A stretch of DNA of 64,000 nucleotides from Isoetes taiwanensis (taxonomy: Eukaryota; Streptophyta; Lycopodiopsida; Isoetales; Isoetaceae): NCBI GenBank assembly GCA_021234155.1, contig JAJEKV010000047.1, positions 7,529,071-7,593,070 on the forward strand, given 5' to 3'. Below the pieces are notes generated by a model. It saw only the letters and a list, made by a program, of their open reading frames with translations, was not told the DNA's origin and made no database searches. How positions within the stretch are numbered: position 1 is the first letter of the stretch; each line of letters begins with the position of its first letter. The position numbers were made by a program, and so were the translations under genes. Positions 5,412-64,000 of the stretch are shown one piece after another.

Positions 5412-6944
5412 TGTGACGTTCCAGGTATCTATACGGTATACGTATGCATACCATGACACGTCACCAGTACATAATAGGCCTAAGGGCCCAAGTGAGGGGT
5501 TCGCCTATAATGGTTTTTATTAGCTATGCTAATAAAACCAAAGGATAATTATGGATTATAATAGCATAATTAACCTAATTAAGCCATTATGGTCTAATTA
5601 ACTAATTGTGACCAATGAGGGTGTGCCACCTGGCCCAAATCGATTGGCCAGGAGGGACTTACCATTTTGGGGCAAGGAATAGGGGTCCTACCCTCCAATT
5701 TACCCCAAATTCGAATTTGGAGTGAAGGGGAGCAGCAGCCGATAGCTCACACTTGTATTTGCCAACACTTGACCACCAGCCTCGAACTATGGATGCCTAC
5801 CGTGAACATGGCTCTAGCCAAGACACCGGTTAGTCAATAGATAGCTTCTTTGTCGCTGACACTTCTTTGAGTAGATGGGATGATTAAATTCTCTTTTGTA
5901 AGTTACTCTGAATATTTGAATGGTATTTACAATAGTTCTTTCTGCTTCTTCTATGTATTGGGAATTAAGGGAAGGGTAGAGATCTAAAAGCCTCTTAGCA
6001 TTAGAGATGTCTCTAGCTAGATCCCTTAATACCCAATAATTGCGGCCTGTGCACAAAAGCCAACCTGGCTGTGGACTATGATGTGGTTCAGCATCAGACA
6101 ACGAGTATGAGGGTGAATCGGGGGTGGGGTCTTGCCTAGTGCGGCTACAGGACTCCTATAGTGTGCTAGGCTTATACCTGGTCACTGTGTGTGGGCCGGG
6201 TATGGGTCCGACACTCTCTAGGCCAGAGGGCGGGGCCATAGAGGGCCGTCCTGGGCTCGAACGGGTTGGAGAGCTAACCTTTAGATTTAGGGGAGTAAGT
6301 CGGATACGGACGCGGGGGTCGCTGAGGCGGCACGTGTTCTTTAGCACACCCAGGGATCTGTCATGCTCGGGGAGGAGACGCCTCTTTGACCTTCCTCATT
6401 GGACCGGGGAGATGTAACTCGGAGTAGTCCCGAAGGGTGATTCCTTGGGATTGCGTCTTCGGAGGGCTACAAGCACGTCATAGCATGATTCAGCCTATCT
6501 GCAAGGTGTGCACAGGAGGGGCGGATGGAGTGGACAACCCTAGCCATTGTCTTATGCCAGCCAACGCCATGTTATACTTCCGTCTGTTGATATCTTGAGA
6601 CCCTGGTTGTCAGTTGATCCCTTGGAGTCTGAGCACGGGGTAGTGCTTTGTCATGGTGTTATTTCATGTTATTATGGATGTATTGTTTTTTCCGTGATGA
6701 TGATGGATGGGCCACCCTTCGTGGTGGTATATTATTATGCATGATGATTGTATGCTAACGTATATGTATGCTTCCGTTGTATAGGAATTTCCCATAGAGG
6801 ACGTGGGACGAATGACACCTCCGTGTTCCTCGCCCGAACACTTGGCCATGACAGAGGGCCTTGCCATGGTGATGTGGTCGCCATGGGAGGGGAAGTCCTG
6901 TATTTATACGATGGGAGCATCGTATAGATTCTGGGAGCATCACA
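5412..6944 (+). repeat. 5' LTR of Gypsy-A (1533 bp)
   Basis: Begins TGTGACGTTCCAGG and ends GGGAGCATCACA, so it has the usual TG...CA ends. The first 240 bp recur at 17332. The last 250 bp recur in reverse orientation at 32839 and 44313. The 3' end holds a small hairpin built from TACGATGGGAGCATCGTA. Being followed one base later by a tRNA primer site fixes the boundary. Confidence 0.9.
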
Positions 6945-6945
6945 G

Positions 6946-6957
6946 TGGTATTAGAGC
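6946..6957 (+). other. Primer binding site, initiator-Met tRNA type
   Basis: TGGTATTAGAGC differs at one base from TGGTATCAGAGC, the usual plant PBS complementary to the 3' end of initiator tRNA-Met. It lies one base after the 5' LTR, as expected for minus-strand priming. Confidence 0.9.
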
Positions 6958-7568
6958 ATGATTTTGGTGGACCAAAATTATTGCACTGGCTGGCCATAGT
7001 CTAACTCATTGGTTGACGATAATTTCTCCTAGGTTGGAGCATCCCAACTCTGTAATTAGTATCTTAGTTGGCCTAGTTACGGGAGGAATGACCTAGTTGT
7101 GGAGGGACGTGCTCCATAGTGGAGTGGTTAAGGTCATGAAGTGGAGCCAGAGGTACGAGTTTTGCAATCGCCATAACTTTCTCCACGTAGCTCGGATCGA
7201 CGAGATTCTTGTTCCAGCGCATCAGGCATAGTCCATATACCTTAGAGGGGTTAGTCATCCGGCAGCAAAAGGTCGAGCAAGGGGTTCAAAACCCAACTCC
7301 GGAACATCTCGGGTTTGGTCGCTCCAGAATTCCAAAAGAAACTCGTATAACATGAGTTGCGCCGGACCGTATATGGCGCGTATTTTCGCCGTATAATTTT
7401 TTTTTTTTTTTTTTTTTTTTAGTTTTGTGTGCGCCTCCTCCCGCCTACCCTAACCGCCCGCCATAGCCACCGGACTCGAGCTCGCAACTCTGCCCCTGCC
7501 TGCGCCCTTGCTACCTCCACCCCTTAGCGCCTCACTTCCTGCCTTCCTTTCAGTCAGCGCTTTTGTCC
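6958..7568 (+). other. Gypsy-A leader (5' untranslated)
   Basis: Non-coding leader between the PBS and the first ATG. It contains a run of 24 T (7397-7420) and then a C-rich stretch ahead of the start codon. Parts are related to the leaders of Gypsy-C and Gypsy-D, for example a segment like CCTAGTTACGGGAGG. On the minus strand near 7460-7490 a GCTCGAGTCC phrase may be a worn Pol III B-box like those in the other leaders. Confidence 0.65.
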
Positions 7569-8881
7569 ATGGCCAATACCAAAAGTACCTTGAACCTCGC
7601 CAGCCTCACCCTACCTCAGATTTATGCCATGCTTGGAGGGCACCTGGCTACTAACCCTGACATGGTTGAGCTCCTTCTGAACGAGCTGGTGCAGCGCTTC
7701 AGTGATGGCATCAGGATACCCTACCCTATCTTCCACCTTTCAGAGCGTTTCTTGATTAAGCTCAACCTCCAACGGCAGGCATACACCATGGTCGAACAAC
7801 CCGACCAGGTAATGATGATGGTCAAGTTTTACCCACCTGAGTGTGAGGAATACTCAGAAGAGGAGAGGGCATTTGGAGAGAGGCGGCCTGCATCAGGACA
7901 CTGGCCCGTGCAGACGATATTCGGGAGATAGAGAGGGGAGACACCGCGGCTCGAGGCCGTGAGTATGTCTACCTGGGGGAGGGGAGAGCCATCATCAATG
8001 GTGAACCTTTCGAACTTCCCCCATATGAGTGACATGAGGTTTCCCAGACCTTTACTTGGGGTGAGATCCCAGGACATGTTATCCTGGACTACCTGACAAC
8101 GGTCCAGATCGATATGCACCTCCGGCCCGACCGCTATCATCACGAGCTGCTCCGAAGGGTCGCGGCTCGGCGGTTTGCTCAGGTGGAAGTCGACATGGCA
8201 CAAGCCCGTGTGGCTCGGGAACGGGCAAAAAGGGCCCAATAGGAGCAACAAGAGCAGCAACAAAACCTGGATTAGCAGCAACAGCAGCAGGCCAACACAG
8301 AGCAGGAAACCCCGCATGAACCCGATCCGGTGGACAAGCCGGCCATCAAGAGACGCAGGAAATCCACAGCTCACAAGTCAAGCAGCCAATACAAAGAGAA
8401 GCTAAAGGTTGTCGGGAGCATAGGGAAGCACACAAGTTCAAGTCGTCGGCAGGAGAGAGTGGACGCCGCACGGCCTCACCCCACTTCCGGGGGCAAGACA
8501 TTGCCCAAGAAGCCTAGCCCGACTCCAAAGGCTGCTACCTCAAGGAAGCCCCACCGCTTCAAACCGGGCACCGTGGCTTTACGGGAAATCCGTAAATACC
8601 AGAAGACCACGGAGCTGCTGTTAAGGAAGCTGCCCTTCCAGAGGCTGGTTAGGGAGATAGCCCAAGAGTTCAAGACTGATCTCCGCTTCCAGACCTTCGC
8701 TATTTTGGCACTTCAGGAGGCTGCTGAAGCCTACCTGATAGCTCTCTTCAGTGACGCGAACCTTTGCGCTATTCACGCAAAGAGAGTCACCATCATGACC
8801 AAGGACTTTGCTCTTGCCCGAGAATTCGGGGAGATCATCTTTAGTGGCTCCTTGAACATTTATTTTGTAACAATTTTGTGA
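7569..8881 (+). pseudogene. Gypsy-A ORF-A: unknown N-terminal domain, Q-rich coil and histone H3 fold
   Basis: An accessory protein of about 437 codons, starting at an ATG in good plant context (7569). Residues 1-105 (ANTKSTLNLASL onward) match nothing I know. A frameshift near 7880 in a GAGAGAG run moves to a frame that then runs to the TGA at 8879, broken only by stops at 8030, 8240 and 8273; the last two look like CAG to TAG. Next come an arginine-rich helix, a glutamine-rich coil (about 8225-8300) and a basic tail with RKSTAHKS. From 8549 to about 8845 it is plainly histone H3: [56 protein letters not shown]. Loop 1 has no CENH3-type insertion. The last helix ([11 protein letters not shown]) is unlike ordinary H3. 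The domain is intronless and in frame with what precedes it, so it is a fusion captured by the element. The role is unknown; binding to nucleosomes or centromeric chromatin is a guess. Confidence 0.85.
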
Positions 8882-9087: not shown

Positions 9088-10400
9088 ATGGCTGCCATCG
9101 ACCTGCTTGAATGGTACCAAGACGGAGAGCACTGGGATCCTCAAGTCCCCTTTGATCTCTTACAGCCTTTCCTACTCCAACGCATCGACCTCATCTCCAA
9201 CATGCAGAACCACCCTGACTATGCCGGGTTTTTGGAGTTCTACACCGAGGAGATGCTTCCTCTTTGCATCCCTTTGGGAGAACCCCCACAGCTATACATT
9301 GACCGAGCTGTGGTGCGGGAGATGCTTGGAGGAGACAAGCGTGCCTACGAGGTGCTCAGGGGCAAACTCCGGTGGGGCCGTAACCCACCCGTCGTCATGC
9401 ATGAGGGTCAGCAGTTCCTCGAAGTGACTTTTGCCTCAGCCATCCTCATGGATCAGTATGTGGAGGATGAGATCTTGCCATTAGCCGAGGAAATGCCGCC
9501 ACGCCGGGAGCGGGGAGGACGCTTAACCGGATTGGATGTTCTTCCCGTTATATATTACCAAGGTCAAGAGTTCCTCCTCTTGGATGATATTCTATGGACA
9601 TACCATGTAGTGGCCGGGTTCAAAGGACGAGAGAAAGTACAAGTCCTCTATGAGCTGGCTGAGTATTGCATGGATGATTTCATTGATTTTTCATCCGTGG
9701 ATCTCCCTCCCGAGGTATAGCAGCTGCTTCAATTCCACCAGCAAACCATAGAGCCGGCTGACACACTTCTCAGGCTTAGAGATCTTGTACTTCAAGATCC
9801 TCCATCCCAGCCTCCTCCGGAAGCCTTCACGGCTATGGGACCCCAAGTCCCAAATATCAACATGGTCGAGATTCCCTCTAATTCAGATGAAGAAGGGGAA
9901 GACCTTTATCATAACCCTGCCCATATTAGGAGGAGAAGGAGGAGCTTAAAGAAGAAGAGGTCTCTATGGACCTAAATAAGGAGGTAGCCACTTCAGTTAC
10001 TCCACAGGAAAAAGCGTGGGGAAACCATCTTACCCGCCTTTTCCTATCAGCCTTTCGGCAAGGGCAGGTCCTTTTTGTAGCCCGAGACCTGGCCCCGGAG
10101 GCCGAGGCATCGTGGTGGAGCCTCCGTGCCTTGTCCACCCTGGCGGGCCACAAGAAGTTGTCGTACCACGTTCACACTTATGTGTTGGTGCGTTGGAACT
10201 TCGCCCTCACCGCCTTGGGCTAGGATATAGCACCCTGGATGAGCATGAAGCTCCTCACGGCGGCTCCATTAGCTGCCGCCTATCCTCCAGAGATTGCTTC
10301 TCTTGGGACCGCCACGGTTGACCCAGGGGTCACTTTGCTACGTCATCGGCCGCCACCACCACTTACACCAATGGACCAAGATGCGGGGCCTAGTTCCTAG
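9088..10400 (+). pseudogene. Gypsy-A ORF-B: accessory protein of unknown function
   Basis: Starts at an ATG in good context (CCAATGGCTGCC) and reads 210 codons to a TAG at 9718 that was probably CAG. It continues in frame through FHQQTIEPADTLL and a proline-rich stretch, shifts frame in a purine-rich run near 9930, then reads EEKEELKEEE and on through VLVRWNFALTALG. A TAG at 10221 interrupts it, and it ends PPPPLTPMDQDAG at 10398. The full protein would be about 437 residues, close to ORF-A. The N-terminal half is acidic and rich in leucine and aromatic residues (LLEWYQDGEHW, LLDDILWTYHVV). The middle has an acidic motif followed by RRRRRS. I recognise no family. Its place upstream of gag suggests an element-specific accessory protein. 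Confidence 0.6.
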
Positions 10401-10590: not shown

Positions 10591-10985
10591 AAGAAGAGGA
10601 CGAGCCACCGCTAGAACAAGAATATGAAGAAGACGACGAAGATTATGAAGAAGAGGAAGAGGAAGATGAAGGAGAGCCATACGACCCCATCAAGGGCTTC
10701 GAGATCGTTAACATCCTTCGCGAACACGCTTTCGAGCATTTACAGCTTACGCTCCGTCGCACTTGGAATTATTGGGATTGTACTAATTAGGAAGCCTTTG
10801 CTGATGCTAACGATCACCTCTGGCAGATATATTATGCGCTCTGAGATCTTTTTAATCTTCTAATCATCAGCCCTACTTTGGACTTCCAGTATGTCATAAT
10901 TCAAGCTTGGGCTAGGTACAAAGTGGTCCGAGCAGTGCGGGAGAGTATTCAATACTCTATCCTATACCCCTTCACGCAGCCCTAA
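10591..10985 (+). pseudogene. Gypsy-A ORF-C: acidic exon-like ORF, unknown function
   Basis: Begins after a splice-acceptor-like stretch (CTTGCCTTCTTACAG) rather than at an ATG. The first part is extremely acidic (EEDDEDYEEEEEEDEGE) and is followed by a helical stretch (NILREHAFEHLQLTLRRTW). Two stops (10788 TAG, 10842 TGA) break a frame that otherwise runs on through LFNLLIISPTLDFQYVI to TAA at 10983. The sequences on both sides (10401-10590 and 10986-11159) are AT-rich, without open frames, and end in polypyrimidine plus AG. ORF-C and gag may therefore be joined to upstream exons by splicing. An acidic chromatin-binding role is only a guess. Confidence 0.5.
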
Positions 10986-11159: not shown

Positions 11160-12396
11160 ATGGTGCACGCCCTCCCCCTTGGGCGACACCCGTGCAACCG
11201 GGCCGCCTTACCTCGGAACAGGAGCTCACTATTATGAAGCGTCAGCTTACTGAGCTCCAAGCCTACATACTGCAAATAAATCCGCCTCAAATGCCACAGG
11301 AGTATGGACCAGAGATCCCCCCTCCACAAAATCCGCAGCCGCCACCTGCACCTGCGCCTGCGCCCGCCACGGCAAGCCGATCTAAGAGGACACGCCCTAG
11401 TTCTTCCTCGGATGCTGCCTTGGAGTCTTCTGACTCTTCTGATTCCTCTGAGGATGAGGCCGACCATGCCAAGACCAACAAAAAAGATTATCAGAAAACA
11501 GTGGATTCGGCCATCACTAGCATTTGGAAGAACCGGCGACTCGCAAAATTCTCAGGGAAAACCAGGAATGGAGTGGATGCGGAATCATGGTTGGACGAAA
11601 TGCAAGAGTTTGATAAGTCATACTGACAAGGATATCGGCAAAGTTGCCACCACCAATCTTACAGGGTCAACACGAATCTGGTGGAAAGGATATGCTCGCT
11701 CTCATGGGCTCACAAGGGGAAGGTGCCGCTATAAAATCTTTGCTAAGGCCTTCAAGTCACATTATGTGTCCAAGACCCATCGTTGCCAGCAGATCCAAAT
11801 CTTCTACCGCCTAGAGCAGAAAAATATGACTGTCCAGTCTTATACAGATGAGTTTATGTGGTTACACTTATATGTCCCAGGGATAAATGAGCGTAGGGCA
11901 GTTGAAGGCTACATAGAGGGCTTATCCCCTATCCTAAGGAACATGGTTCGAGCCATAGACCCTAAGACCATTGCAGAAGCAGAGGCTAAAGCACTTAGCC
12001 TAGAAGAAGACACCCCGAAGTACCAGCTGCCACGACCCTCTTCGTTCACTCAGAACAAGGGGTACACACCTTACAGGGGGCGCTCACCCAGTCCCGGGCC
12101 CCGCCTCGACTGGATACCAGAGGCCTGATAAGAAGGTTTCCTTCACTATGCCAGACAAGCCCACCCAAGCTATCCCTAAGGAGACCCGTGAACAGCTGCA
12201 TAAGGAGCGGGCTTGTTATCGGTGCTTCCGCCCGGGGCACTGCATGCAAGAATGACCCTACATCACACAGGCAGTGCAGGCCGCCCTGGCTGATATAGAT
12301 TGGGAAAACGCGGGGGACCCAAGCCATCCGGATAACACTGCTGAGGATGACGCGCCTGACTATATAACAGGTGAGTCTCACATTTATGCTGCCATT
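11160..12396 (+). pseudogene. Gypsy-A gag (capsid and zinc knuckle)
   Basis: Reads from an acceptor-like TCTATCTAG. A coiled start (LTSEQELTIMKRQLTELQ) and a proline-rich linker lead into the capsid motif KFSGKTRNGVDAESWLDEMQ. A frameshift near 11620 moves to KVATTNLTGSTRIWW, which continues through the retrotrans_gag fold (VQSYTDEFMWL, VEGYIEGLSP). A second shift near 12110 leads to the nucleocapsid knuckle CYRCFRPGHCMQE, whose final Cys codon is now TGA (12253). Gag would package the element RNA into virus-like particles. The reading frame continues into the protease linker after removal of the inserted MITE at 12397-13338. Confidence 0.8.
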
Positions 12397-13346: not shown

Positions 13347-16300
13347 GAAACAGGTCAAGCAAACCACCAGCCCTTTGTCATTTCTGCTGTTGGTCAAGTA
13401 GATTGTAAACCTTTTGTCATTCTTATGGATACGGGTAGTACTCATAACTTTGCATCACCTAGAATGGCGGAAGCCTTACAGCTCACCCCTTTGAGGTCTA
13501 ATCCACGTCCAGTTACGCTGGCAAGTGGGGCCATACGCCACACCCGTGGCCGTCGTATCAATTTGAATATCCAGCTGCCAGGAGCCCCTGTTGCTCTAGC
13601 GGAAATAATAGATATTGGCCGCTATGATCTCATTGTAGGAATGGAATTCTTTGCCGCTGCCAAAGCCAACATTGATTGTGAGAAACGGGAGGTCACCTTC
13701 AATGCAGCCAATGGAGCCCGAGTCACTATAGCAGGTAAGCCGGTTAATCCTATTATGCAATGTATTTCATTATGCCAGTTGCATAAGGCTCTCAGGAAGT
13801 TGCAGATCATAAGCATGATTCGACTTGCTTCAGTGGAAGCTAAGTCCAAAAAAGATGAGGTCCTTGATGCCTTGCCTTCAGCAATAGCCGTGGTTCTTCG
13901 GGAATACCATGATCTTTTCCCTGATGAAATCCATCGGCTACCACATTTCAGAGGGGTGGAATGTGAAATTACCTTGGAACCAGGCACCAAGCCTACCAGT
14001 AAGGCCCCATATCGGATGAGTATTCCTGAATTGACCGAGCTTAAAAATCAGTTACAGGAACTCCTCAAGTTAGGCTTCATTAGGCCTAGTGTCTCACCTT
14101 TTGGAGCCCCGATACTCTTTGTTAAGAAAAAATGATGGCACTCTGAGAATGTACATCGATTACCGCCAGTTAAACAAGCATACTATCAAGAATCGGTATG
14201 CCTTACCGGGGGCCGATGATCTTATGGATCAATTGCAAGGAGCCAAGTATTTCACGAAGATTGATCTTCGGTCAGGGTATCACCAGATAAGGATTAAGGA
14301 GGATGACATCCATAAGTCCGCTTTTCGGACCCGTTATGGGCATTACGAGTTTACAATCATGCCATTTGGCCTGACCAACGCTCCGGCCACCTTCATGAGA
14401 CTTATGAATGATGTCTCCCGCGAGTACCTTGACGATTTCGTCATTATATTCTTTGATGATATCCTTATATACAGTAAGACCTTAGAGGATCATGAACGGC
14501 ATCTTCGGTTGGCATTACAAAAATTGAGGCGCCATCAATTATATGCCAAGTTTTCTAAGTGTCGCTTTGCCACCACCAAGGTTGATTATCTGGGACACAT
14601 TGTGTCCGCATAGGGAATAGCCACCGACCCAGCTAAAATTGAAGCAGTCAAGAAATGGCCAATTCCAACCAATGTGTCAGAAGTCCGAAGCTTTTTGGGC
14701 TTGGCGGGTTATTACCGTAAATTTGTCAAAGACTTTGCCAAGCTCACCGCACCTTTAACCGACCTGACCAAGCATGATAAGGTCAGGGATTGGATGGCAC
14801 ATTGGAAAGATAAGGTGCAGACCGGATTTCAAGCATTAAAAGATGCGTTAACAACAACTCCTGTTCTTACAATGCCAGATCCTCAAAAGGATAAGTGGGT
14901 TGCCACAGATGCCAGTAAAATTGCTACGGGGGAAGTCTTAATGCAAGAAGGTCGCGTTATCGCTTATGATTCTCGAAAGATGAACGACGCTGAACAGCGA
15001 TACCCCACGCATGACTAAGAGTTGCTCGCCGTCGTGCGTGCCTTGCGTAGTTGGCGGCATTATTTGCTTGGAAGGCGATTCCAGTTGGACACGGATCATC
15101 AAAGCCTCCAATACATCTTTACGCAACCCCATCTTAATTTGAGGTAAAGATGGTGGATGGAATTCCTCGAGGAATATGACTTTGAGGTCATTTATAAACT
15201 GGGCAAGCATAATGTTGTTGCTGACGCCCTTTCTCGACATCCATTCGTCACTCGAACGCATTGTAATGCTATCTCCACACTCTCCAGTGAGTTCGGGAAC
15301 TAAATCCAGCAGGCCCTTCCCACAGATCCGGAGTTCCGAGAGGTATGGCAAAGTGTATCTAAGGAAGCCAGACAGATAAGGAGAGAGAGACTTTCCGCCA
15401 TTATAAGAAGAAAGCTGAACTCCTTTATTACAAAGACAAATTGTATGTTCCCGAGACATCTGGAGTTCGTAAGCTCATTCTCCATGATACACATAACAGT
15501 CCGATAGCCGGGCATGCGGGATTTATGAAGACATATTTCAAAATCTGCTCCAGCTATTTCTGGCCAGGCATCAAGAAGCATATTGCCAGGTACATTAAGC
15601 AATGCCAGACCTGTCAACAAACAAAGGCAGAACAGTTGCGTATTCCAGGAGAATTGCAACCCCTCGACGTACCCAATGCTAAATGGGAAGTTATTACCAT
15701 GGATTTTATCGTGGGGCTTCCGCGCACTTTAAGAGCGTTTGATGCCTTAATGGTTGTGGTCGACAAACTTTCCAAGATGGCACATTTCCTGCCATGTCGT
15801 ACCACAGACACTGCATTGGATACTGCCTTACTCTTCACGAGGGAGATCTTTCATCTGCATGGGATGCCCCGTACCATTACATCAGACCGGGATCCCAAGT
15901 TTGTTAATGCATTTTGGAAGGATTTCTTCAGCACTATTCAAACTAAGCTTGCCATGAGCACAGCTTATCATCCGCAGACAGATGGGCAAACAGAGCGTAC
16001 CAATCGCATCATTGAGGATATGCTACGTAACTACGTCTGGAACAAACAATCGCAATGGGCAGACTACATTTCATTTGGTGGAGTTTGCTTACAATAGTAC
16101 TAGACAGAGTCCTCAAGAATGTCTCCTTTCATGATACATTATGGTTATCAGTGCCTCACATCAGACACGTGGCATAATCCAGTATCAAAGGTGGAGGTCT
16201 CGCAGCAATTGCTTACAGATATGCAAGCACTAGTCGAGGAAGTGCGAGCATACTTGATAGCCACAAGAGCTCAGCAAAAGAGTCTGGCAGATCGACACCG

Positions 16301-16805
16301 TACTCCCCGGGAGTTTCAGGTCGGTGAGTCCGTCTGGCTAAAGATCAAGGTGAAGCAAGCCAAACTTAAGATTGGCAACTGTAAGAAGCTTGCACCTAGA
16401 TGGGCGGGACCATTTTATATAACCGAAAGGATAGGTTCTCAGGCCTACCGGGATATACCCGCACGTTTAAAGATCCATAACGTTTTCCATGTAAGTCTTC
16501 TCAAGAAGCATCATCCGGATCCAGAAGAGATTCTTGACACACCAACACTTCTGAAGATGACTGAGGATCAGTTGGAGATTGTGCCAGAAGCTCTCCTTGA
16601 TCGTGCCTATAAGCGAACCCGTCGAACTCAAATCTTGCAATACTTGGTCAAGTGGAAACACTTACCCACAGAAGACGCAACATGGGTTCTTAAAGCGGAT
16701 TTGGATAAGACTTACCCGGACTTAATGAAGGAATGCCAGGGCCGTACCATTCAAGATGCAATCATCTCCAACCTGGATGGTAAGCATAGTGGTCTCTTAG
16801 TGTGA
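13347..16805 (+). pseudogene. Gypsy-A pol: protease, RT, RNase H, integrase, chromodomain
   Basis: Protease: ILMDTGSTHNF (13419). [46 protein letters not shown] (catalytic Asp pair 14455-14460). RNase [13 protein letters not shown] and the HNVVADALSRHP end. Integrase: zinc-binding H-H-C-C region (HAGFMKTYF, CQTCQQTK), then DDE at D15702, D15884 and E16014 with HPQTDGQTERTNR between the last two. A chromodomain follows (16588-16705: LLDRAYKRTRRTQ, YLVKWKHL, EDATWV), which marks chromoviruses and can steer integration to modified histone tails. Breaks: frameshifts at 14132 (A-run), about 15400 and about 16070; stops at 14611, 15016, about 15146 and 15301, all explicable as CAA or CAG to TAA or TAG. 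It is complete in domain order but inactive as it stands. Confidence 0.93.
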
Positions 16806-17331: not shown

Positions 17332-17598
17332 TGTGACATTCCAGGTTCCAGGTATCTATACGGTATACGTATGCATACCATGACACGTCACCAGTACATA
17401 ATAGGCCTAAGGGCCCAAGTGAGGGGTTCGCCTATAATGGTTTTTATTAGCTATGCTAATAAAACCAAAGGATAATTATAGATTATAATGGCATAATTAA
17501 CCTAATTAAGCCATTATGGTCTAATTAACTGATTGTGACCAATGAGGGTGTGCCACCTGGCCAACCTGGCCCAAATCGATTGGCCAGGTGGCAACTTC
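17332..17598 (+). repeat. Truncated 3' LTR of Gypsy-A
   Basis: Matches the first 240 bases of the 5' LTR with four transitions, a 7-bp duplication (TTCCAGG) near its start and a 9-bp duplication in the CCTGGCC region. It stops at about 17598, where LINE sequence begins, leaving some 1.27 kb of LTR missing. Confidence 0.88.
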
Positions 17599-19070
17599 TT
17601 GTCTTCCATTTCATATCTTTCTTTTAGAAAAAAAATACTTCCCTTTTAGGAGGACGCAATGGACATTGTACTTTCCAAAGTTATGTCTATCATCTCTCTT
17701 GTACAATGCCAGGAACTCGAGGCTTCTCTCACAGAAGCAGATCTGGAATTTGTAGTATTCTTGATGGCCAAGGATAAGTGCACAAGCACAGATGGTATAC
17801 CCATAGAATTCTTTCAGTCTTGAGGAGGAGACGTTCGGCCTTGTATGGCAAGCATATCAGGATTTGTTGCAGTCTCATCAGTTGGACATTATACTTAACA
17901 CGTGTCTCATTGCTCTGATCCCTAAAGTCAAGGAACGTACTTTAATTTCTCATTGGAGATTGATTACCCTGCTGCCAGTAGTGTACAAGAATATAGCGAA
18001 GGCGTATACAAGAAAGTTGAAGAAGATTTTAGCAATCTCAATTAGTAACGAGCAGTCTGGCTTTTTGCCTGGCAGACATATTGTAGATAATGTAGATGCG
18101 GCATATGAGGGCATCTATTGGGCAAGGAAAATTGGCCATAGAGTAATGTACCTCAAATTGGATTTCGAAAAGTTTATGATAGCGTCTCTTAGTTGTTTCT
18201 CCATCGTGTCATAGAGACAAACTAGGTTTTGGTTTCTCCTTCTCCTCCATTGTCTGGAAACTGTTGAGGTCTTCTAAAGCAGCAGTAACTTTTTTAGGGG
18301 CATCCGTCACAGTTTTTCACAGTGGAAAGGGGCATTAGGCATGGTTGTCCACTTGTCCAGGTTCTCTTCACTATTGTAGTCAGGGGAGATTCACAGTTGC
18401 TTCGTAGAGTGATGGGCAGTGGTCTTGTTGCTAGTTTGGGCATGACTAATGGTTCCCAATAATTTTAATCGGTTTATTAATGATCTCTTTTAGTGGAGGT
18501 TAGCGAAGAGAACCTTACTGCAATCAAACAATGTATGGACATATTCTCTCTTGCCTCGGGTTCTATGTTGAATTGGCAGAAGTGTAATGCAATTTGGGCA
18601 CTGGATGGTCCATCCCAGATTTGTTTGTTTCAATATCCTTGGAATCTTATTCCTTCGACAACTACTACCAAACTGCTTGGGGTTTCTTTTGAAATGGAGA
18701 TCTCGGCAGTTTAAAGCATGGACAAAGTCATTCTTGGCCTTTAGAGGCATTCGCTTTGGTGGAGAGGTGCTTCTTTATCCATTGAAGAAGTATAGGTAGC
18801 TAAATTTGTCCTTAATAGTGCACACGTGTATGTGGTTTCAACAATTTTAAGAGATCATTGTGTTAGTTTAGAACTTTGTGTGGAGTTTAGAACTTTGTGT
18901 GGGGTGGCAATGAGATAGAGCAGTTGTGAAAATTGCATGGAGCAAATGTATCCGCCGCAAAAAGAATGGTAGCCTAGGTACGTCTGGTCTCAAACTTCAC
19001 GTTAAAGTTCTTTCCAGTGGCAGTGGCAGATCCTTTTGGACCATGTACAATCATGTGGTATATGCATACT
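17599..19070 (+). pseudogene. L1-type LINE reverse transcriptase remnant
   Basis: Reading across several frames gives an L1-type RT: LTEADLEFVVFLMAKDKC, DGIPIEFFQ, LIPKVKERTLISHWRLITL (17900-17960), NEQSGFLPGRHIVDNV, YLKLDFEK then YDSVS (18150-18190), RHGCPL, FSLASGSMLNWQKCNAIW (18545-18600), KLLGVSF, and VKIAWSKCIRRKKNG (about 18920-18960). Stops and shifts are numerous, and the FADD catalytic box expected near 18470 is not readable, so it is dead. No 3' tail or target duplication could be fixed. It continues the LINE ORF1 piece at 5200-5411. Confidence 0.8.
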
Positions 19071-32170: not shown

Positions 32171-32593
32171 GAGTTTATGTACTCCCGTGGACAACCGATT
32201 GTAGCTTCCATATTTGGATTCCAAAGGTCTACCAACCTAGCTGCCAAAAAAAGAAGACTAGAAGTCATGAACAAAAATTGGGGACTAGGTCTGATAGGAG
32301 TTCCCTTGCAGCAGGTTGCCATAGTCCTAGCCAGGCAGATGAAGTTGAGGAATGTGTGCCATGCAGGCACCAATGGAGAGGTACCATATCAGCATTGATG
32401 TCCATATCCCACTCGTGAGGCCAATTCCAAGCAAGGTTGTCACAATCATATCTCCATGTAAGAGATGGAATCTACCCTTACACGAGAATTTGGGTCCCCA
32501 AGAGGCCATAAGGATGGATACTCAATCATGGATAAAGTATGCCAATAATAACACTGACCCTGGTTGTGATCTAGCTGTGGACAAGGCAAAGAT

Positions 32594-34410
32594 TGTGACG
32601 TTCCACGTATTTATATGCTATACATACGAATACATGACACGTCACCAGAGGTATATAAGGGTTTATTGACCTAATGGGGTAGTACATTACATTGATTTTA
32701 AGCATAGTAATTAACATTAGCTATATTAATTAATTATGGCAAATTTAAGTGCCACGTGGCATGAACTATTCGAGCAAACTAATTAGGGCATGACCAGTGC
32801 TATGGTCCGGTCTACCAAGACCATAGCTCTGATAACGTTGCGACACTCCCCGGGACCTATATAATGCTCCCATTGTATAAATAGGAGAAATCCCCTTCCA
32901 TGGCAACTCCATCACCAAGGGAAGGCCCTCCGCCTGACTGGGACAACTTGTGATGGCCAAGTGTCCGAGTGAAGGGCACGGAGGTGTCATTCGTCCCGTG
33001 CCTTCTATGGGATATCCTACATGGCGGAAGCGTACATACATGTTAGCACTAGCAAACAATACATATAAAATGGTGGCCCACCCATCATCAATACGAACAT
33101 GAACATAATACTAACATAATATATAAAATGTATCACAAATAAAGGTTCTATTCAGGCTCTGACTCAAGGGGCTCAACTGATAGTCAGGGTCTTCGAATAA
33201 CAACAGATAGAATCATGACAATGGCATTGGTTGGCATAGAACAATGGCTACGGTAGTCTATTCCATCCGCCTCTCCTGTACATATTTTGCAGATAGGCTA
33301 AAATATGCTATGGCGTGATTGTAGCTTGCATCTCCCTGGTCCGATGAGGCAGGAAAGAGACAAATCCCTTCCCAAAGCACAATGGTTCCATGGTTGGCTA
33401 GAGGATTGTGTCACCATTGGCACCCACGCATCCGTACCCGATTTACCCCTCAAAATCCATAAGTTGACCCCAGCCGCACCTATCAAGTCTAGGATGTCCC
33501 TATAGGCTGTGATCCGGGGGTGTCAGACTATATCCGGCCCATATGCAGTAACCGACTATAAGCATAACACACTATAGGAGCCCTGTAGCCACGCTAGGCA
33601 AGGCTCCACCTTCACTTCACCATTGTATTCGTTATATGGTGTTCAATCTTGGTATTAGCATCCACATCCAAGTGGGTTCTTGTGCACATGCCGCAATTAA
33701 TGGGATTTATGGGATTCTAGCTGGAAACATCTCTATTCCTACTAGTTTTTAGGTCTCTACCCTTCCTTATCCCACAAGCACAGGAGGTGCAGCAAAGGAA
33801 CCACCATGAATCATAAATCCATCCATAACTTCAAAAAGAGCATCAATAAGAGATTAACCATCCATCTAAACAAGCAAGGGTCAATCTCTATCTAGAATCT
33901 CAACTTAACTAAACCTACTAGCCGATATCTAAGCTAGATCTCCACATCTCTCAGGTTCTCTATGGTTGAATAGGCTCCTCCTCCTTCTCCAATTGGCCCC
34001 AAATCGAATTTGGCCCCAATTTGGCTGAATCAAGTTTGGCAATTCTCCCTTGCCCAATTCATTTGGGCTAGGTGGCAATTCCCTAAACTAAACTATTTAT
34101 AAATAATTGCTAATTGAATCAATTATTAATTGGATTAATATATGCCTCCCTAAAATTAGAATTTTTCGTTGATTTCGAATTAGGGTTTGGGGCTAATGCA
34201 AATGGCAGGTTTAACTTGTCTAACCAGTTGTTGCCACATGGCACTTAGATTCCCCATAATTGATTAACATAGCTAATGTTACTATGCCTAAAATCAATGT
34301 AGTGTACTACACCATTAAGTCAACACATAAATTGTCAATAAACCCTGACATACCTCTGGTGACATGTCATGTATTTACACGTATAGCATATAAATACGTG
34401 GAACGTCACA
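32594..34410 (-). mobile_element. Rearranged Gypsy-A-family element with inverted U3 ends
   Basis: A minus-strand LTR runs from 34410 down to 32839 (about 1572 bp), followed by a PBS (GTTATCAGAGC, reverse of 32826-32836) and about 60 bases of leader. Instead of the rest of the element, the first 165-170 bases of the LTR follow in the opposite orientation (32594 to about 32762). Both outer ends therefore read TGTGACGTTCCACG inward, like long terminal inverted repeats. Flanks AAGAT (32589-32593) and AGGAT (34411-34415) look like a 5-bp target duplication with one change. No coding capacity remains. Confidence 0.78.
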
Positions 34411-34415
34411 AGGAT

Positions 34416-44312: not shown

Positions 44313-45630
44313 TGTGACGCTTACCGAATCTATACGATGCTCCCATCGTATAAATACGGGAAATTCCCCTCCCATGGCAAATCCATCACCATGGAAAGGC
44401 CCTCCGTCTGACTCGGACCACTTGTGATGGCCAAGTGTCCGGGTGAAGGACAGGGAGGTGTCATTCGTCCCACGCCTTCTATGGGAATCCTATATAGCGG
44501 AAGCGTACATACATGTTAGCACCTAGCAACAATACTAGTAAATAATATACCACCACGAAGGGTGGCCCATCAACACAACTAACAATAGAATACCAACATA
44601 ACAAAGGAAACGCACCATAAATAAGGGCTCTATCCCGGGATCAGGCTACGTTTAGGCGCTCAAGTAATGGTTGGAAAGACTTTGCCCCAACCATATCTAG
44701 ATACCCTAGAAGGAGGTGACTAGTCAACAATGGTCAGATGCCACTGGACCGTTACGGTGGAACAACCCCAAAAGAGGGTAGGCCACTGTCAATTTGACAG
44801 GCGTGTGGCACAGAGAAATAATGACAGCCATATAGGTGGTGAAGTCTGGCACCCTAGATTAATTAGAGTAAAGTGTTGACATTGTTGTGGGGGTTCTAAC
44901 AAAAGCACTCACTACGTGTTACAGAGTATGTACCATGATCTGGGGGAGTGATCCATAAAAAGGAACACGACCATTGAGAAGAAATATTGAAGGGTGGTAG
45001 GATCAAAGAAATCCAAACCCATGGTCTAGAGGGGTGCTGCATGGCAATCCCTAGTCGGTTGGGCTAAGAGAGATTCTTTCTCTGGGAAATGAGATGAGTC
45101 AAGGCTTAGACACTAAAGAGAAACAATGTTAATTATAGTTATGTATTTAAAATATTGCTGAACCCTTAATATATAATGTCGAATAAGATCTAATGTAACG
45201 GATATGAATGTAGTAGAGATTAAATCATGGCAAGGCCCGAAGCAATTTTGTTATCAAGGCATCTACCAAAGGAAAAAAATATTTAAAGCTATAGGTCTAG
45301 GAACGTCGATAACTGGACATTATTATCGTCGCCTCAAGAATATCCAAGGTGAATAGTGGATTAGAATCCAACTTGGAAGTTTTTATCTTACTCCAAAAAA
45401 TTCCCTTCCATCGCTCAGCGTGAACGTTTGTCGATATGGTTGCGAAAACATTCCGCAGTGATGATAATAACTCTTAAGTTATTCCTAGCTCACCATGGCT
45501 GCACAAGTCCGGCGGAGTTGTTGCCACCGCAGCGTTGGTTTAGGGAAGAGTGATGGTAGACAGGAGTCTTTCTAGAGAATTAGAGATACTATAGTTAAGT
45601 ATAATAAGAGACTATATATCCACTAAAAGG

Positions 45631-51904: not shown

Positions 51905-53559
51905 TGTATGGGGACGCCTTCGGCCGCATACGTGGCTCCTCACCGCATTACAAATGCGAGTTCATCCCCCATACCAGCTCCATGCAAGCACACAGGCCTT
52001 CCATTACGACACCGCAACCGTGACGGGTTCCAGTGGGGAAGAGTGGAAGGGCCATTGCACCCCGCTCCCTCGTGGCCTACCGAAGCCGCGAAGCTGCAAA
52101 CATACATGTCAAGAGTACATACATCAACATCATATGACCATCACGGCGATGGTCTCCACATATTCAGAGCAGATAAGGATCGCGACATCAAGCATAGGAA
52201 TCTCATCATGCCCGTATACTGGAGCACCGGCTGCCGGCCCCAGTTCACACAGCATAATTCATGGTACGGGATTTGGCTCGGTATAAGAACATGGCCTAGG
52301 GTTGTCCACGACCGCTTCTCCCCAGGCACACTTGGGTGCAGTAGGCTGAAAAAGTGTTGGGATTCGACCGTAGCTCCACCGATGCATAGCCAAGGGGCTA
52401 TATCCCGGTTACATCTCCCCTGGGCCCGATAGCGTGCAGGGATTTCTCCTCCAGAGATCTACAATGTCACTCAAGGTGACTAGAGGGCCACCGCCTGCAT
52501 TCACTTGAACTCAATGGAAGGTCATATTCACCACCTCACTAGAGTAAATGAGCCCATGCCTTGCTCCACACGCTAGCGGCAGCCATTAGACCTAGTCACG
52601 CGGGACTTCTGCCAGCCTTTACACACCGCAGGGGTCGCTCAAGAGCCTAACATGAACCTCTTATAAGCCACCGCCCCTTCACCCAAATCCGTGTGTGGCT
52701 CTTGTGCACATCTACAGTGGTGCTAGAGAGGCTACTCTAGAGCATCAACTACAAAGCTTTTAGGTCTCTACCCCCTTCCCAATACAAGGAGTTCATAGAG
52801 ATGCATCATCCATATATTTCACAGAGAACCAAAGAACTAAATCTAATCTACAACATAGGTTAGGTTCTTAGTTAGAATCTGCTATCTAAGGATCTAGAGG
52901 CCCGCTATGGCCAATCTAATAGGCTAAACCTAACATTCAATGCCTAAAATAGGTTTAGACTTATCTACTGGGCCAAATACTCCGATCCTTGGAGGGCCTC
53001 CCGACCCGAGCTCACCATCCTCATCAAACGCCTAATCTCGAGGAACTAAGGATGCAATTCTCCCAGCAGAAGTCTGATGCGGTTTTGGCCGTTGAGGCAA
53101 CAAACAGTAGTTCTAAAGCCCTAAAATCTAAAATTAGGTTAGCTAGGGTTTCCAACCCTATATAGACAAGGGGGTTGGTTAGGTTTCCAATTATCCCTTT
53201 TGGCATGTGGGATAATCGGGGAATGGGCCCACTGCCCTTAAGGGTTAGGTGGCTAAATGTGCCCACCTACATGGAAATGTGTGCACATTGTCGAATGTAC
53301 ATTGGAAAATGTGCACATTAATTGCACCTATGGGTATGGCCCACTTGGCATCAAGTGGCCACATGGAAATGTGCAGCCAGCCATTAATGTGTACATTGAA
53401 AATGTGCACATTAATACTAATGCACGTTTCTAGCAAGTTGCCCCAGGGTTCACCCAGCACTTGGCTACACGCTGGCTTATTAATGCCAATTCCATATGGT
53501 ATCGCGGACGCGGCAAGCATAATATACGCCCCGGGATGCATAATCGCTCGAACGCCACA
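51905..53559 (-). repeat. 3' LTR of Gypsy-B (about 1655 bp)
   Basis: On the minus strand it starts TGTGGCGTTCGAGCG directly after a polypurine tract and ends near CCCCATACA. It contains several copies of the palindrome AATGTGCACATT (53280-53420) close to its 5' end. Related over much of its length to the Gypsy-A and Gypsy-C LTRs. Confidence 0.75.
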
Positions 53560-53572
53560 TTCTCCCACCTGA
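53560..53572 (-). other. Polypurine tract of Gypsy-B
   Basis: On the minus strand TCAGGTGGGAGAA abuts TGTGGCG, the equivalent of the Gypsy-A PPT position. Confidence 0.7.
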
Positions 53573-54479: not shown

Positions 54480-57400
54480 CTCGTCCCCATTGCTCCATAA
54501 CCGTGGGTACCGCTACTCAGATCTTCTTGGTACCCACGCATGCCTTCCACCGTAAGTGCTCCACTTGACCAAATACCGGAGTGAATCTCCGATCTCCTCG
54601 CTTCTTGAAAGCTTTATCAAGAATCAACACTCGAACTATTTCCACCGTTCGCCATTTCCAACAGCGATAATCCAAGACTCGGCCCGATTTGGGGTATGCC
54701 TCTTCAAAGAACTCACGCGGGAAGACCTTATGAATCTTTAGGTGTGGCCGGCAAGTCTAGCTTATAGGCTTGATTGCCTAGTTTCTAATTATTCCGAAGG
54801 TCCAGCCTAATCTTGGAGCAAGCTTGCAATTGCCGATCCCGAGCTTCGGCCGCTTCACTTAATCTTGGAGCCAAACATCATCTCCAACTTTGAACTCTCT
54901 ATCGCTCGAGCGTTTGCCTACGCATGCTCTTTCGACACTTCTTGCCGCCAGCGTATAGCCACGTAACTTCCTCTACAGCCGCCGTGATATCGCCAACATC
55001 CGCCGCTAAACTTCCACTTTTGACACGGGTTGTATAAGTATCCGAGTTAGGGTAATCGATAGCCGTAATTGATCATAAACGCCGACATTTGGGATGATTC
55101 CCGCTTGGTGCTATTGTACAAACCTACCAAGTGAATAAATTCCTTCCTACATACCTTGCTTATTCCGCATAGTTTCGTAGCATGTCCTTCTAAAAATCCC
55201 TCGCTGGTCTCATTCTCCGCCTCGCCATCCGGCCTCGGTGATGATATGCCGTGGCTTCCGCGGATAAATTTCGCCTGATCGTCGCGAAAGAGGTTCGCCA
55301 AAAGGCGCCATGACTTCGGATCCCTCGGCTTCTGAGATGATCTCTCGCATGCCATGAAGCCCCGGCGATCTCGTGAAGAGCTTGCTGTATCCATGGCTGT
55401 ATTCAGAGCCCCAAGGCACAAAATGTGCCATCTTCACAACTTGTCGACCACTCACTAAGGCATCCTTTGCCTCTCGCCGCTCTTGGGAGTCCCGCGGATG
55501 AAATCCATGCTGATTACTTCCTCCCACTTGGGGCCGCTTGGCAATCGCTTAATGGCCTAAATGCCCCTGGAATTGCTGTTCTCGCCCTCACGTAGCTGAC
55601 ATTCCTGATGTAGCGAAGCTATTTGCTTCTTCATATTCCCGCTAATAATAGCGCCAAGACTTTGAAATATATGTTTTCATGAATCCCGCATACGCTTGAG
55701 TTGGCCAAGCAGCGCGGTCGTGGAGGATCAACTCTTACACCTGATGATTCGGTACGCATACAACTTGTTCTTATGGTATAACAAAGTTGCCTTCCTTCTT
55801 ATAATGCTTGAAGGCTCCGCCTTTATCCTGCTCTAGCCTTCCTTAGAAAGGCTTGCCCATACCTCTCCTTGAAATCCACGCCCCGCTAAGGCAAGGACTC
55901 TTCAATCCTTAACAAAGTCGCCGAGAGCGCCGAAATTGCATTGCAATGCACTCTAGTTGTCGTGGATGCCTTGAAAGCCAAGATTCGCTACCACATTGAG
56001 CTTCCCGCTTGTAGACTATATGAAAGTCATATTCTTCGGTGAACTCCATCCATCTCCGCCTCGTGATTAAGGTGTGGTTGGCGTGAATACATATTGAGGC
56101 TCATGGTCGGTATCCACTGGAACTTCCTTCCCCGGGTGAGGATAATGCCTCCATATTCCCTAATGCCCCACAACCTCGCAAGCAACCTCCTCGACAAGGC
56201 CAGGTAGCTGCCTGCTGCTCATCTTCCTGAATCATAATGCCTTTCACACGCTTCTTCTTGCATAAGCACCGTGACTCAGAGGCTATCTTACTCAGACCGC
56301 TGCTAATGCAGCTTATCTTTCTCCGGTCCGCAGGTTAAGATCACCGCTTGTTAAAGCCTTCAACAATTCAAACCCCTTTTGGGCTTCTTTGTGCCAATGC
56401 TCGCCCAATTTTCACCTTCTCTCTCGCCTCGGCCGTCTCAAGTAACTGTCATATCTTAGCAAAGTTCTTCACGTAATCCTGTAGTGTACCCTGCTAGGCC
56501 TAGGAAACTTCTCACTTCATGCACATTCCTTCGGCGCCGCCAATCAATGACTCCGCCAATCTTGGCGCAATCCGCGGAGATGCCTTCACAGATCACATGA
56601 CCTAGATACTCCACCTTTTTCAAGGCGGCGGCACTTCGACAACTTGGCGCATAACCGTGCCTCTTCAACTTCTCTAGCACTCTTCTCAAGTGTTGTACGT
56701 GTCTCTTCAAGGATCTCGCTATACACCAAAAATGTCAGCTAAAGAAAACAATCACAAAGGTGTCCGTGAACTCTCAAGATATCGCTCATGAGCCCTCATG
56801 AACGCTAAGTGGGGCATTTGATAAGCCGTAAAGGCGTCACCGGTGGAACTCAATGCCCATACCGCCGCTCCGGGCGGCCCTATGGATGTCTTTCCTTTAT
56901 CCCGATCTGATGATAACTCACCTTAAGTCGCATTTTTGGAGAAGATCTTTGCACCTTTGGAGTTGATCCATCAAGTCACTGACTAGAGCGCATACTTGTT
57001 CTAATGTAGTGCTTATTCAACTGCCTATAGTCTATGCACATTCTCAAAGATCCATCCTTCTTCTTGACAAAAAGAATGGGCGCCTAAACGGGCGGTAGAC
57101 ACCAGGGTCTAATGAAAACCCAGGTCGGCAGCTCCTCGCGAATCGTGCTTTCTTCAAATTCGCCAACCTTCGTGTTGTCATTCTATATGGAGCCTGTTTG
57201 TTGGCTTTTGTTCCCCGTCTTCGAAAGCATTCTCGCATTCTGACCGCAAGGGAGGTGAGCTGCTTGATCTCATCCAAAGAGATCATGGAACTCCTCGCGG
57301 ATTAGCCGAGATACTTGCTTCTCGCAACTTGCCGAAGCGCCGCTGTCTTTGTTTCTTCTGATTCGCTCACTAATCTCAAGCTGAAGATGTATGCCACTTG

Positions 57401-61000: not shown

Positions 61001-62860
61001 CTAGATTTTTATCGAGATTAGGTAATTCCCATCTATTAAGGGATGCAATTGCAGTTTGAGGACTATTTCTAGAGTTTGAGCATGTGCTAAGGAGAGCTAA
61101 CAACCTATTGTGCAATTTGGAGATCATTTGGTGATGACATGGTATCGTGGTTCATATTGTCGTACCATTTCTAAAATGTAGAAATCATTCCGCTGACGCG
61201 GTGAGACATGGGGTCTTAATTGGGCCAGGATTGCTCAATTTAGGTGATCTAAGGTCAGAATTTACTAAACTCATCGAAGAAGCGTGCACTGACCCTTACT
61301 TGGTCGATTTGGAGCCGCTTGGGCATTTTATATTTGTCCATTGCCGCTATGCCTGTTCATTTCTAAAATGTAGAAATCAGCCCTGCTGCCGACGCAGAGA
61401 CATCGTCTCAATTTTGCTCAAACTCCAATTTACTCAAAACGGTTGGCTAGGGATCGACATCTTGACCTATTTAAAATGGTGTTTAACACTTTATTTACAA
61501 TGTAAAATTTTCTTTATATTAGCAAAATTTCATAAATATTTACAAGGTTCAAGGGCGTTTTCCTTGATGTGTCCGCAAGATACATATCCCCGCCTCATGA
61601 GGGTGACCCTTCACAGGTAATCGTGGCAAAAGCCGCTGAATCTTCAAATGTTTCACTAAGGGCTTCGCCGCCTCTTTGCAAACATGTTAAATATCTCGGG
61701 CTCACACGCCGTGACAAACTGTGGTTATATTCTTGAATGACTTCGCGACTGTGACGCTGGAACGGGCGCCGGGAATCAGGAGTCTGTGAATTTTCTCCGA
61801 AGTGGCGATCTCCTTGAGTGCCTCGCCTTCCTCCTCGCTTTCTTCTTGCCCGCCTTCTTCCCGTGCTCGTGGGGGCTTGGTTGCGGAGGGGGCCAAAGGT
61901 TCTGCTCGTCGTGCCCGGCCAATCGCCACCCTCGCAGGCTCCCGTAGTAGGCATTGTAGGCCTCCCACTTTGCCATATACGCCGGGGTAAGCCCTCGCCT
62001 CTTCTTCCTCGATAGACCTTTAAGGGGTCTATCACATAGAGCCGCGCCAGGCCTTGACTCCTATCCCATGCTTCCGAATGGTGGGGGCTTCGCCACCGCC
62101 TCTCCTCTCCCCGCTCTTGGGCCGCCTCGCTGCACCTCTTCCTCTACAAATCGGGCTTTGAAGAGCTTGCCCCTGCTCAAGGCCGCAGACGTAGTCTTGG
62201 TCCGACCGCTTGCAGGGCGGGCCTCCCTCCCCGACGCGCTGCTGACCTATCTTCTTCCCCAACCTTCACCAGCCTCTTGCCTCGCTTTGGATGGCCTTGG
62301 CCCTCCTCTTCTTTCTTGGGTCCGCTGCCTTCCTCATCCTTTTGATTCTGCCTCCCAAGGGCGCTTTTGACTTCGTGATTTGTGGACGGCTGCATAGGTC
62401 GGCCTCTTCCTCCTGTGGTGAGTTCCGCGGCCGCCGCTTCCTACCTCGCTTCCTCCCGCAGTGGATCTCATCCCGGGTTGTTCTGGCCTATTGCGGGTTC
62501 CGCCGCTCCTCTCGCCTTCCTCGTGGGTTGGCGCCTCTCGGTGTTGCTCCCGCTGCCGCCGCCAGCTTCCCCGCCGCTCAATTCTCAAGGAGGATCTGGC
62601 CATGACGCCCGGCCGACGTCTCCAAGATTCACAGGTGGTCGCCCGTCCACTGACTCGCCGACGTAAGATCCGCCTTTATCGCGGAGAAGGCGCTCGCAGA
62701 ATTCTATGAAAAGGCTTCGAGATACCGGGCGCCGAGGATCCGCTGCTAGGCCTTTGGTACCGCTGCAAGGGCTAACATTTTACAGCTCGCCGCATTGGAG
62801 CTACGCGCCAGAAGATCGCCTTTGACAATTGGAAATGGGTTCTCGTGAAGGACTAAAATG
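58001..62860 (-). pseudogene. Gypsy-B gag and upstream region, heavily scrambled
   Basis: GC-rich DNA with coding-like composition but no frame longer than about 150 codons. Minus-strand pieces are charged and proline- or arginine-rich (MARSSLRIERRGSWRRQREQ near 62600, RRRARRKRGGRRG near 61880), which might be linkers of gag or of an accessory ORF. I could not find a zinc knuckle, capsid motif or H3 fold. The size fits gag plus an accessory region like that of Gypsy-A. Confidence 0.4.
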
Positions 62861-63394
62861 GGAGGGTCCGGGCCCATTTATAGGCCAATTTTAGGTCAAC
62901 TTTAAACTACCTTTTTGGGTTGTCTAAGGCATCTAAAACACCTAATTGTTAGTGTTCACACGCTATGTTCCATTCCTAGAATCTAGAAACCCGTCTCCGG
63001 CGCCGACGCAGGAGACATGGTGGGGCCCACTACAAATTAACATGTAACATGCTAAATCTACTAATTCTAGCTTAAATTTAGAATTATCAAGATATTTTAC
63101 TCAGAATTTACAACTTTTTGGTGTCAGCCGGACAAAACTAAGACGCTATACCAAACATTTCTAAAATGTAGAACTGGGTTCCGCTTAATGGGTGAGACCA
63201 CACCCTACTTTTTGATGTTGTCAATAATTTAGTCTTTTTACGCTTTCTATTCTTTTTAATCGTTACTAGCTTAGTGATAAATTCAGCAAAAAATGAGAAA
63301 AATTTTCATTTTTCGAGGTTTGAGGATCCTATCAAGTTAGTGCTACCGGGAATATGGCTGCTGCTTGCTCTTGGTCTCCAAGAACATAGCTCAT
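62861..63394 (-). other. Gypsy-B leader and primer binding site
   Basis: AT-rich leader. At its upper end the minus strand reads GTTATGAGCTATG (63382-63394), a worn form of the GTTATCAGAGCTATG primer site seen at 32822-32836. An ATTTCTAAAATGTAGAA phrase recurs at about 61170, 61350 and 63160, with a diverged form near 62970. Confidence 0.55.
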
Positions 63395-63395
63395 A

Positions 63396-64000
63396 ACATC
63401 AGGATGCCTCGCCGCATACTGGCCTCTACCCCAGATACAAACAGAGTTCATCCCCATACCAACATGCTAAATGGCTGTGGCCTTCATGACACCGCAACCG
63501 TGACGGGTTCCAAAGTGGGGAAGAGTGGAAGGGTCATTGCACCCCCGCCTCTCGTAGCCTAACAGCCGAAGCTTAAACATACATGTCAAGAGTAATATAC
63601 ATCGGTCATCATATGACCATCACGGCGATGGTCCTCCACATATCCACAGATAGACAAGGATCAAGACATCACATAGGGAATCCTACCCAAGGCCTGCATA
63701 TCGGGATGGACTGATGTTTGGCCCCAGAGTTCATTGCGTATGCTGCACTATGGCAATGGATTTGGCCGCATACAAGAACATGGCCTAGGTTGTCCACTCC
63801 ATCCGCTTCTCCCCGTGCACACTTTGGGTGTGGCTGGTAAGTGTTGGGACTCATCAGAGTTCACGGATGCATAGCCAAGGGGCCATCCTCGGGTTACATC
63901 TCCCCAGCCCATGGGGCAGTGCAGGATTCTCCCCTCCGCAGGATCTACAATGCCGACTAAGGTGACTAGAGGGCCACTACCAGATTCACTTGAACTCAAT
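63396..64000 (-). repeat. 5' LTR of Gypsy-B, cut by the window end
   Basis: The last 600 bases (minus-strand sense) of the 5' LTR, homologous to 51905-52520. The 5' end lies beyond the window. Confidence 0.78.

Follow-up and report, generated by a model that had tools for sequence, protein, structure and literature searches.

A histone H3 fold retained in an accessory ORF of a Gypsy chromovirus family in Isoetes taiwanensis

The window analysed here, a stretch of 64,000 nucleotides from Isoetes taiwanensis, contains a damaged member of a family of Gypsy chromoviruses of about 13 kb (family 1), in which an accessory ORF ahead of gag (ORF A) ends in histone H3. The ORF A protein, of about 400-460 aa, begins with a unique, conserved N-domain, continues through an E/Q-rich coil and a basic linker, and closes with a complete plant-type H3 fold. 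Constraint was found to be strongest in the H3 core, where purifying selection is very strong, and the core diverges together with the rest of the element, with which it has been inherited through a deep divergence.

The order of features in the family 1 element is LTR, primer binding site (PBS), ORF A, ORF B, ORF C, gag, protease (PR), reverse transcriptase (RT), integrase (IN), chromodomain, and LTR, and the window copy lies on the plus strand. Its 5′ LTR (TGTGAC...TCACA, 5412..6944), the start motif of which is also present in other copies, is followed by the PBS tggtattagagc (6946..6957), which we take to be of the initiator-Met type; the exact motif TGGTAT[CT]AGAGC was present in 15 of the 20 other copies that were read over 10 kb. 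A run of T residues lies in the leader just upstream of ORF A (7398-7421). Downstream of ORF A are ORF B (9088..10397), which encodes a conserved protein of no known family and is broken in this copy, and a partial match to the third conserved ORF ahead of gag, ORF C (10686..10976; L057:6237-6767 in reverse-complement numbering and L058:5814-6338), for which there was no Pfam match. These are followed by gag (11304..12125; Ty3_capsid, Pfam 7.4e-13) and the aspartic protease (13425..14132; RVP_2, Pfam 5.7e-07). The RT (14089..14610) and the core of the IN (15441..16094) were recognised by eye in translation and are conserved among other copies and in L024/L035, respectively. The C-terminus of the IN matched Pfam SH3_Tf2-1 (1.7e-17), the chromodomain (16581..16733) matched Pfam Chromo (4.8e-10), and the truncated 3′ LTR (17332..17580) was 98.6% identical to the 5′ LTR across 218 bp. 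Just after this LTR, at about 17580-18214, a LINE-like reverse transcriptase frame was seen by eye. Relatives of the element LTR were also found in inverted orientation at 32593-34411 and 44313-44571. The sequence that they enclose showed no ORF A, ORF B, gag, or RT, and they perhaps represent a non-autonomous derivative.

The H3 core of the window copy (8549..8821) is in register with H3, as the first-pass annotation had read from the letters alone: the Pfam match to Histone was 1e-38, and the best PDB sequence match was a plant H3.3 (1.6e-48). That annotation had also placed the H3, the Q-rich coil, and an unknown domain in one frame, which holds for the coil and part of the domain; the first approximately 100 aa, the part of the N-domain called N1 (7569..7877, frame 0), are in a different frame from the H3, with a frame change near 7865-7877. 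The remaining part of the N-domain (M), the coil, and the basic linker (7865..8548) contain in-frame stops at 8030, 8240, and 8273. The C-terminus (8822..8881) is out of register and has lost alpha-C, and the divergent alpha-C previously regarded as a property of the element turned out to be damage in the window copy, because alpha-C is present in 17 of the 20 other 10-kb copies.

To place the window copy in its genome, the 1,658,258,908-base assembly (1,110 contigs) was searched with the H3 query. There were 8,240 loose candidates, and the best 150, which were scored, all matched with E<=2e-47 and 84-100% identity; by our own count, 38 of these 150 matches sit in open frames of at least 400 aa. 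Therefore, family 1 copies are likely to number in the thousands, an estimate derived from loose candidates rather than from a count. A canonical H3 query gave 9,018 candidates; among the 150 scored were 15 full-length host H3 genes (96-99% identity, at least 271 bits), each matching in a single uninterrupted frame, and the other 135 scored at most 192 bits.

The loci read comprised 8 short ones and 20 of 10 kb, the latter picked for long open frames, although one of them (L028) has a stop. One locus (L001) is the window copy and two (L003 and L028) are the same place, giving 27 distinct copies. All 27, including the window copy, contain N1, M, and H3 together, in agreement with the earlier proposal that a host-type H3 was captured by a chromovirus and kept in an accessory ORF between the PBS and gag. 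Among the 20 10-kb loci, ORF B was present in 19, gag in 15, and RT in 14. Measured from its first Met, ORF A was 400-462 aa long in 19, L028 having a shorter one; in 16 it finishes like H3 (LARRIRGE/D.., with one LARRIRREQP), in L013 the end motif is present and the frame continues past it, and in L015, L022, and L028 the end is altered.

Complete elements were encountered rarely. An LTR pair was detected in two of the six copies tried and also in L024, which together with L035 represents one element with LTRs, gag, PR, RT, RH, IN, and a chromodomain region. The first 10 kb of L024 lack gag and RT, and gag, PR, RT, RH, IN, the chromodomain region, and the 3′ LTR (94.6% identity over 840 bp) are located farther on. 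The mutual homology of L023-L026 ends in a TA-repeat right after ORF B, at about 5930, and in L024 a long insertion at this point separates ORF B from gag. The idea that L023-L025 lack pol by design was rejected because L024 has gag and pol past the insertion; in L025, gag, pol, and a 3′ LTR were sought across 18 kb and none was found. In L009 (with L029), the sole copy with both ends comparable, a 5-bp target duplication (GTTAT) lies outside LTR termini (TGTGAC/GTCACA) that by their coordinates are about 12.7 kb apart. The gag and protease domains, the integrase-linked chromodomain, the LTRs, the PBS, and the short target duplication identify the family as a Ty3/Gypsy chromovirus.

The position of H3 behind N1 and M in all 27 copies is contrary to the H3 being a separate insertion or a host gene outside a mobile element. 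Two findings that would have told against the first-pass proposal were looked for. An H3 that entered as a retropseudogene with its own target duplication was not found; in L009, the duplication lies outside the LTRs. Nor were full copies without H3 found when the genome was searched with N1 (2,499 candidates, 150 scored) and 20 copies were taken at about every seventh row, skipping places already read. In 14 of these, H3 was at the expected place (a 351-bp stretch), in some cases partial or damaged, and the other 6 had no H3 and, by eye in translation, no continuing ORF A. Furthermore, third-position distances of H3 were correlated with those of N1, ORF B, gag, and RT, with Mantel r values of 0.90, 0.83, 0.79, and 0.71, respectively (p=0.001 each; 18 copies; 153, 153, 91, and 78 pairs).

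A deeply diverged lineage, represented by L057 and L058, also carries the H3. Its ORF A N-domain is 31-36% identical and its H3-containing matches are 65-81% identical, the ORF B of L058 is 48% identical over the full length, and L057 has the PBS and the LTR start, neither of which was found in L058. This lineage retains the host residues H87 and Q125 and has T86, I89, A107, and L124 in common with the main lineage. A tree of the H3 cores contained 53 rows, with four places doubled (L001/window, L003/L028, L047/L057, and L050/L058). In this tree, the host side was split from all element H3s at 100/100 and the deep lineage formed one group; the root is arbitrary and most other branches are weak. 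The E of the motif QEFKTD is common to the host and element H3s, and it is therefore likely, judging from this residue, that the H3 was captured from a plant bearing a histone of the QEFKTD type. The synonymous distance between host and element H3s was saturated in 36 of 36 comparisons, and therefore the capture is old.

The strength of selection was evaluated in two sets of copies, which were picked for an open ORF A and for likeness to the window H3 and so are biased towards constraint. In the first (17 copies), the median dN/dS was 0.043 for H3, 0.090 for N1+M, and 0.254 for the linker (118, 48, and 86 of 136 pairs each, respectively, being within the dS range used). In the second alignment (15-20 copies), the medians were 0.039 for H3, 0.056 for RT, 0.062 for gag, 0.072 for N1, 0.077 for ORF B, and 0.146 for PR, with 119/190, 29/105, 42/120, 46/190, 76/190, and 43/120 pairs within range, respectively, and the ratios of sums were 0.036 for H3, 0.072 for N1, 0.090 for ORF B, 0.105 for gag, 0.132 for RT, and 0.197 for PR. 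Because pol has perhaps decayed in some copies with an open ORF A, the comparison of H3 with pol is biased, and a fairer one is that between H3 and the other parts of ORF A. A functionless H3, captured by chance and hitch-hiking in the element, might be read from the stops and frame changes of the window copy. This explanation is very improbable, and already contradicted by a median dN/dS of about 0.04 at a dS near 0.8-0.9, the co-divergence with the element, the many open frames, and the retention of H3 in the deep lineage.

Turning to the protein itself, the ORF A of L016 gave a Pfam Histone match of 5.9e-41, and this match and the alignment show that the H3 fold is complete. Relative to the H3.3/H3.1-like histones of the host (10 of the 15 genes read), the element H3 has the same fold and the E of QEFKTD, and at 72 of 96 core positions each of the 19 open copies keeps a host residue, whereas it has an N-terminal extension in place of a recognisable tail and the fixed changes S86T, V89I, E105G/S, T107A, and I124L. 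Nearly fixed are H87F (17/19), G102A (18/19), and Q125A (17/19). On general lists of H3 contacts, rather than contacts computed from a structure, the H3-H3 bundle is kept at 9 of 9 positions and the contact with DNA at 16 of 18. The canonical N-terminal tail (K4/K9/K27) was unrecognisable, with the linker aligning no better than shuffles in eight of eight copies. Two short motifs were considered and rejected as mimics: MANTKST, as a mimic of the H3 start, is missing from the deep lineage, and ARK[ST] in the linker, as a mimic of H3K9, is present in some copies only, the linker as a whole not being above shuffles.

The rest of ORF A, and ORF B, gave no significant matches when profiles of the N-domain and ORF B were compared with PDB and Pfam (best E 0.36, 0.26, and 0.17). 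In the protein database, there was no match at E<=1 for the region upstream of H3 among 1,330 candidates and none for ORF B among 241 candidates. The window frame 2 translation with X at stops (P0001) had 7,905 matches, of which the 120 listed carry a histone domain and cover 27-53% of the query. The proteins P0034, P0042, and P0055, the source names of which are CENH3 or centromeric, and P0059 are tandem canonical H3s and apparently wrong gene models. In viral contigs, neither ORF B (2 stretches) nor the H3 ORF (40 stretches) had a confirmed match. No relationship between the ORF A N-domain and ORF B was detectable, and an AlphaFold model of ORF B from one sequence was unusable (pLDDT 38).

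The location of ORF A upstream of gag, with its coil and basic linker, could suggest that the H3 fold is a DNA- or RNA-binding part of a gag-like particle protein that is unrelated to host chromatin. We consider this quite improbable, as the element has a separate gag with a Ty3_capsid domain, and the surfaces that contact histone partners are nearly all conserved. These conserved surfaces fit entry into nucleosomes, and binding to a chaperone or to DNA alone could also explain the kept core. On the sequence evidence, we think it somewhat probable that the element encodes, in ORF A, an H3 variant of its own that would join host H4 in nucleosomes. The ORF A H3 and host H4 would form (H3-H4)2 and particles resembling nucleosomes, in all likelihood on element DNA or cDNA or at element loci, and the N-domain would take the place of the methylatable H3 tail; such nucleosomes would therefore resist H3K9/K27-dependent silencing. 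The exposed N-domain might in addition be a docking surface for the chromodomain-bearing integrase or recruit element proteins. Against this reading, the N-domain is large and might not fit a standard nucleosome.

ORF A might instead compete for H4 or for chaperones (ASF1, HIRA, CAF-1) as a dominant-negative mimic, loosening host chromatin globally without forming stable nucleosomes. The full fold, the replaced tail, and altered residues in the patch that discriminates between chaperones would suit such a decoy, for which the H4 of bracoviruses (PMC9145170) is a viral precedent. The DNA contacts are also kept (16/18 on the general list) and a decoy has no need of them, and we regard this mechanism as improbable. 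If the nucleosome-variant role is true, a retrotransposon supplies the very protein that bears its silencing marks, and the family offers a natural, heavily replicated, and selected histone variant for testing silencing through the H3 tail, the choice of variants by chaperones, and centromere targeting.

A second, decayed Gypsy element (element 2) occupies positions 51923-64000 of the window on the minus strand. It has a decayed H3 domain (61562..61885, minus strand) with a Smith-Waterman score of 90, compared to at most 52 in 200 shuffles, and decayed RT and IN with a weak chromodomain remnant of E 0.084 (54516..57116, minus strand); the RT, at about 57.1-56.6 kb, is 35-37% identical to that of the family 1 element. 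A probable LTR (51923..52515) is a direct repeat, at 75%, of a probable second LTR (63411..64000), which is cut by the window end and at which no PBS was recognised. In the genome, the frame of this family (family 2) had 2,320 loose candidates, of which 150, including the window, were scored, many of them in open frames of 400-490 aa. Four copies were read, three with an undamaged H3 domain and one broken. The undamaged domains are 46-48% identical to host H3 (E about 5e-37) and 56-57% identical to family 1 H3, their best PDB match is H3.3, and by eye they do not have the family 1 changes at 86, 89, 107, and 124.

The family 2 H3 resembles CENH3/CENP-A in, for example, ALKEIRHFQK and LLIP. At 38 columns that separate AtCENH3 (a working reference sequence) from host H3.3, it agrees with CENH3 at 11, with H3 at 15, and with neither at 12. 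Family 1 H3 has 0-1 CENH3 residues at these columns, which fits the first reading that it is not a typical CENH3. In a small tree with long branches, family 2 H3 grouped with this AtCENH3 reference at 88/89. It differs from CENH3/CENP-A in being closer to host H3.3 (50/87 identities) than to AtCENH3 (46/87), in its canonical loop 1 without the insertion, and in its H3-like end, IKGER. A putative second capture, perhaps of CENH3 type, is the explanation we favour; convergence or a fast-evolving H3 is a possible source of the likeness.

The main rival to the nucleosome variant is that ORF A joins host nucleosomes or histone chaperones solely as a tether, one that would hold the pre-integration complex or Gag at selected chromatin, namely H3.3-type sites for family 1 and centromeres for family 2. 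The integrase carries a chromodomain, the CENH3-like histone of family 2 makes targeting attractive, and the fixed or nearly fixed changes at 86-89, 102-107, and 124-125 include site 87, which discriminates plant H3.1 from H3.3. Tethering can nevertheless do without the keeping of every nucleosome contact. As the sole function we consider it unlikely, with a better chance than the decoy; targeting and the nucleosome-variant role are not exclusive and may hold together. Chromatin targeting and nucleosome mimicry, the uses named in the first-pass proposal, are thus putative roles. If the nucleosome-variant reading is extended to family 2, the same strategy would operate with a CENH3-like histone, that is, in centromeric chromatin. 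The strong conservation of H3 in family 1 and the centromere-like H3 of family 2 suggest that these elements assemble or mark chromatin to their own advantage. A more general proposal, which we offer tentatively and as something short of probable, is that there is a class of LTR retrotransposons with its own nucleosome component, represented by two chromovirus families of a single plant genome with H3.3-type and CENH3-type captures behind N-terminal extensions. At the loci of these elements, the captured histones would serve to make chromatin that resists silencing or resembles that of centromeres.

The plant chromovirus clades include CRM, Tekay, Reina, Galadriel, and Tcn1. Family 1 has the LTRs, PBS, gag, PR, RT, IN, and C-terminal chromodomain of plant Ty3/Gypsy chromoviruses in the same order, and differs from them in the three extra ORFs between the PBS and gag, the first of which ends in H3. 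The lycophyte element SM-Tcn1 is given as 5704 bp with two ORFs in PMC2864245. A search of the open-access literature, with subscription journals and preprints outside its scope, gave no report of a retrotransposon-encoded histone. VANDAL elements are DNA transposons, and the VANDAL/VANC system is not known to include a histone. As an analogy only, VANDAL/VANC anti-silencing likewise involves a plant mobile element with a counter-silencing protein, in that case a sequence-specific one (PMC10398659, PMC5735166). The word "histone" is absent from a review, published in 2026, on the capture of genes by mobile elements of plants (PMC13317346), as is "retrotransposon" from a review of viral histones, which covers DNA viruses (PMC9145170). 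Single viral histones such as the bracovirus H4 resemble the family 1 H3 in that a parasite carries a host-derived, highly conserved, single core histone; family 1 differs in being a retrotransposon, in the histone being H3, and in its fusion behind a new N-domain. The parts (a chromovirus, a captured gene, and a histone) belong to known kinds. Their combination in a retroelement that carries a conserved core histone is new as far as we searched, and it extends the biology of viral histones from DNA viruses to retroelements.
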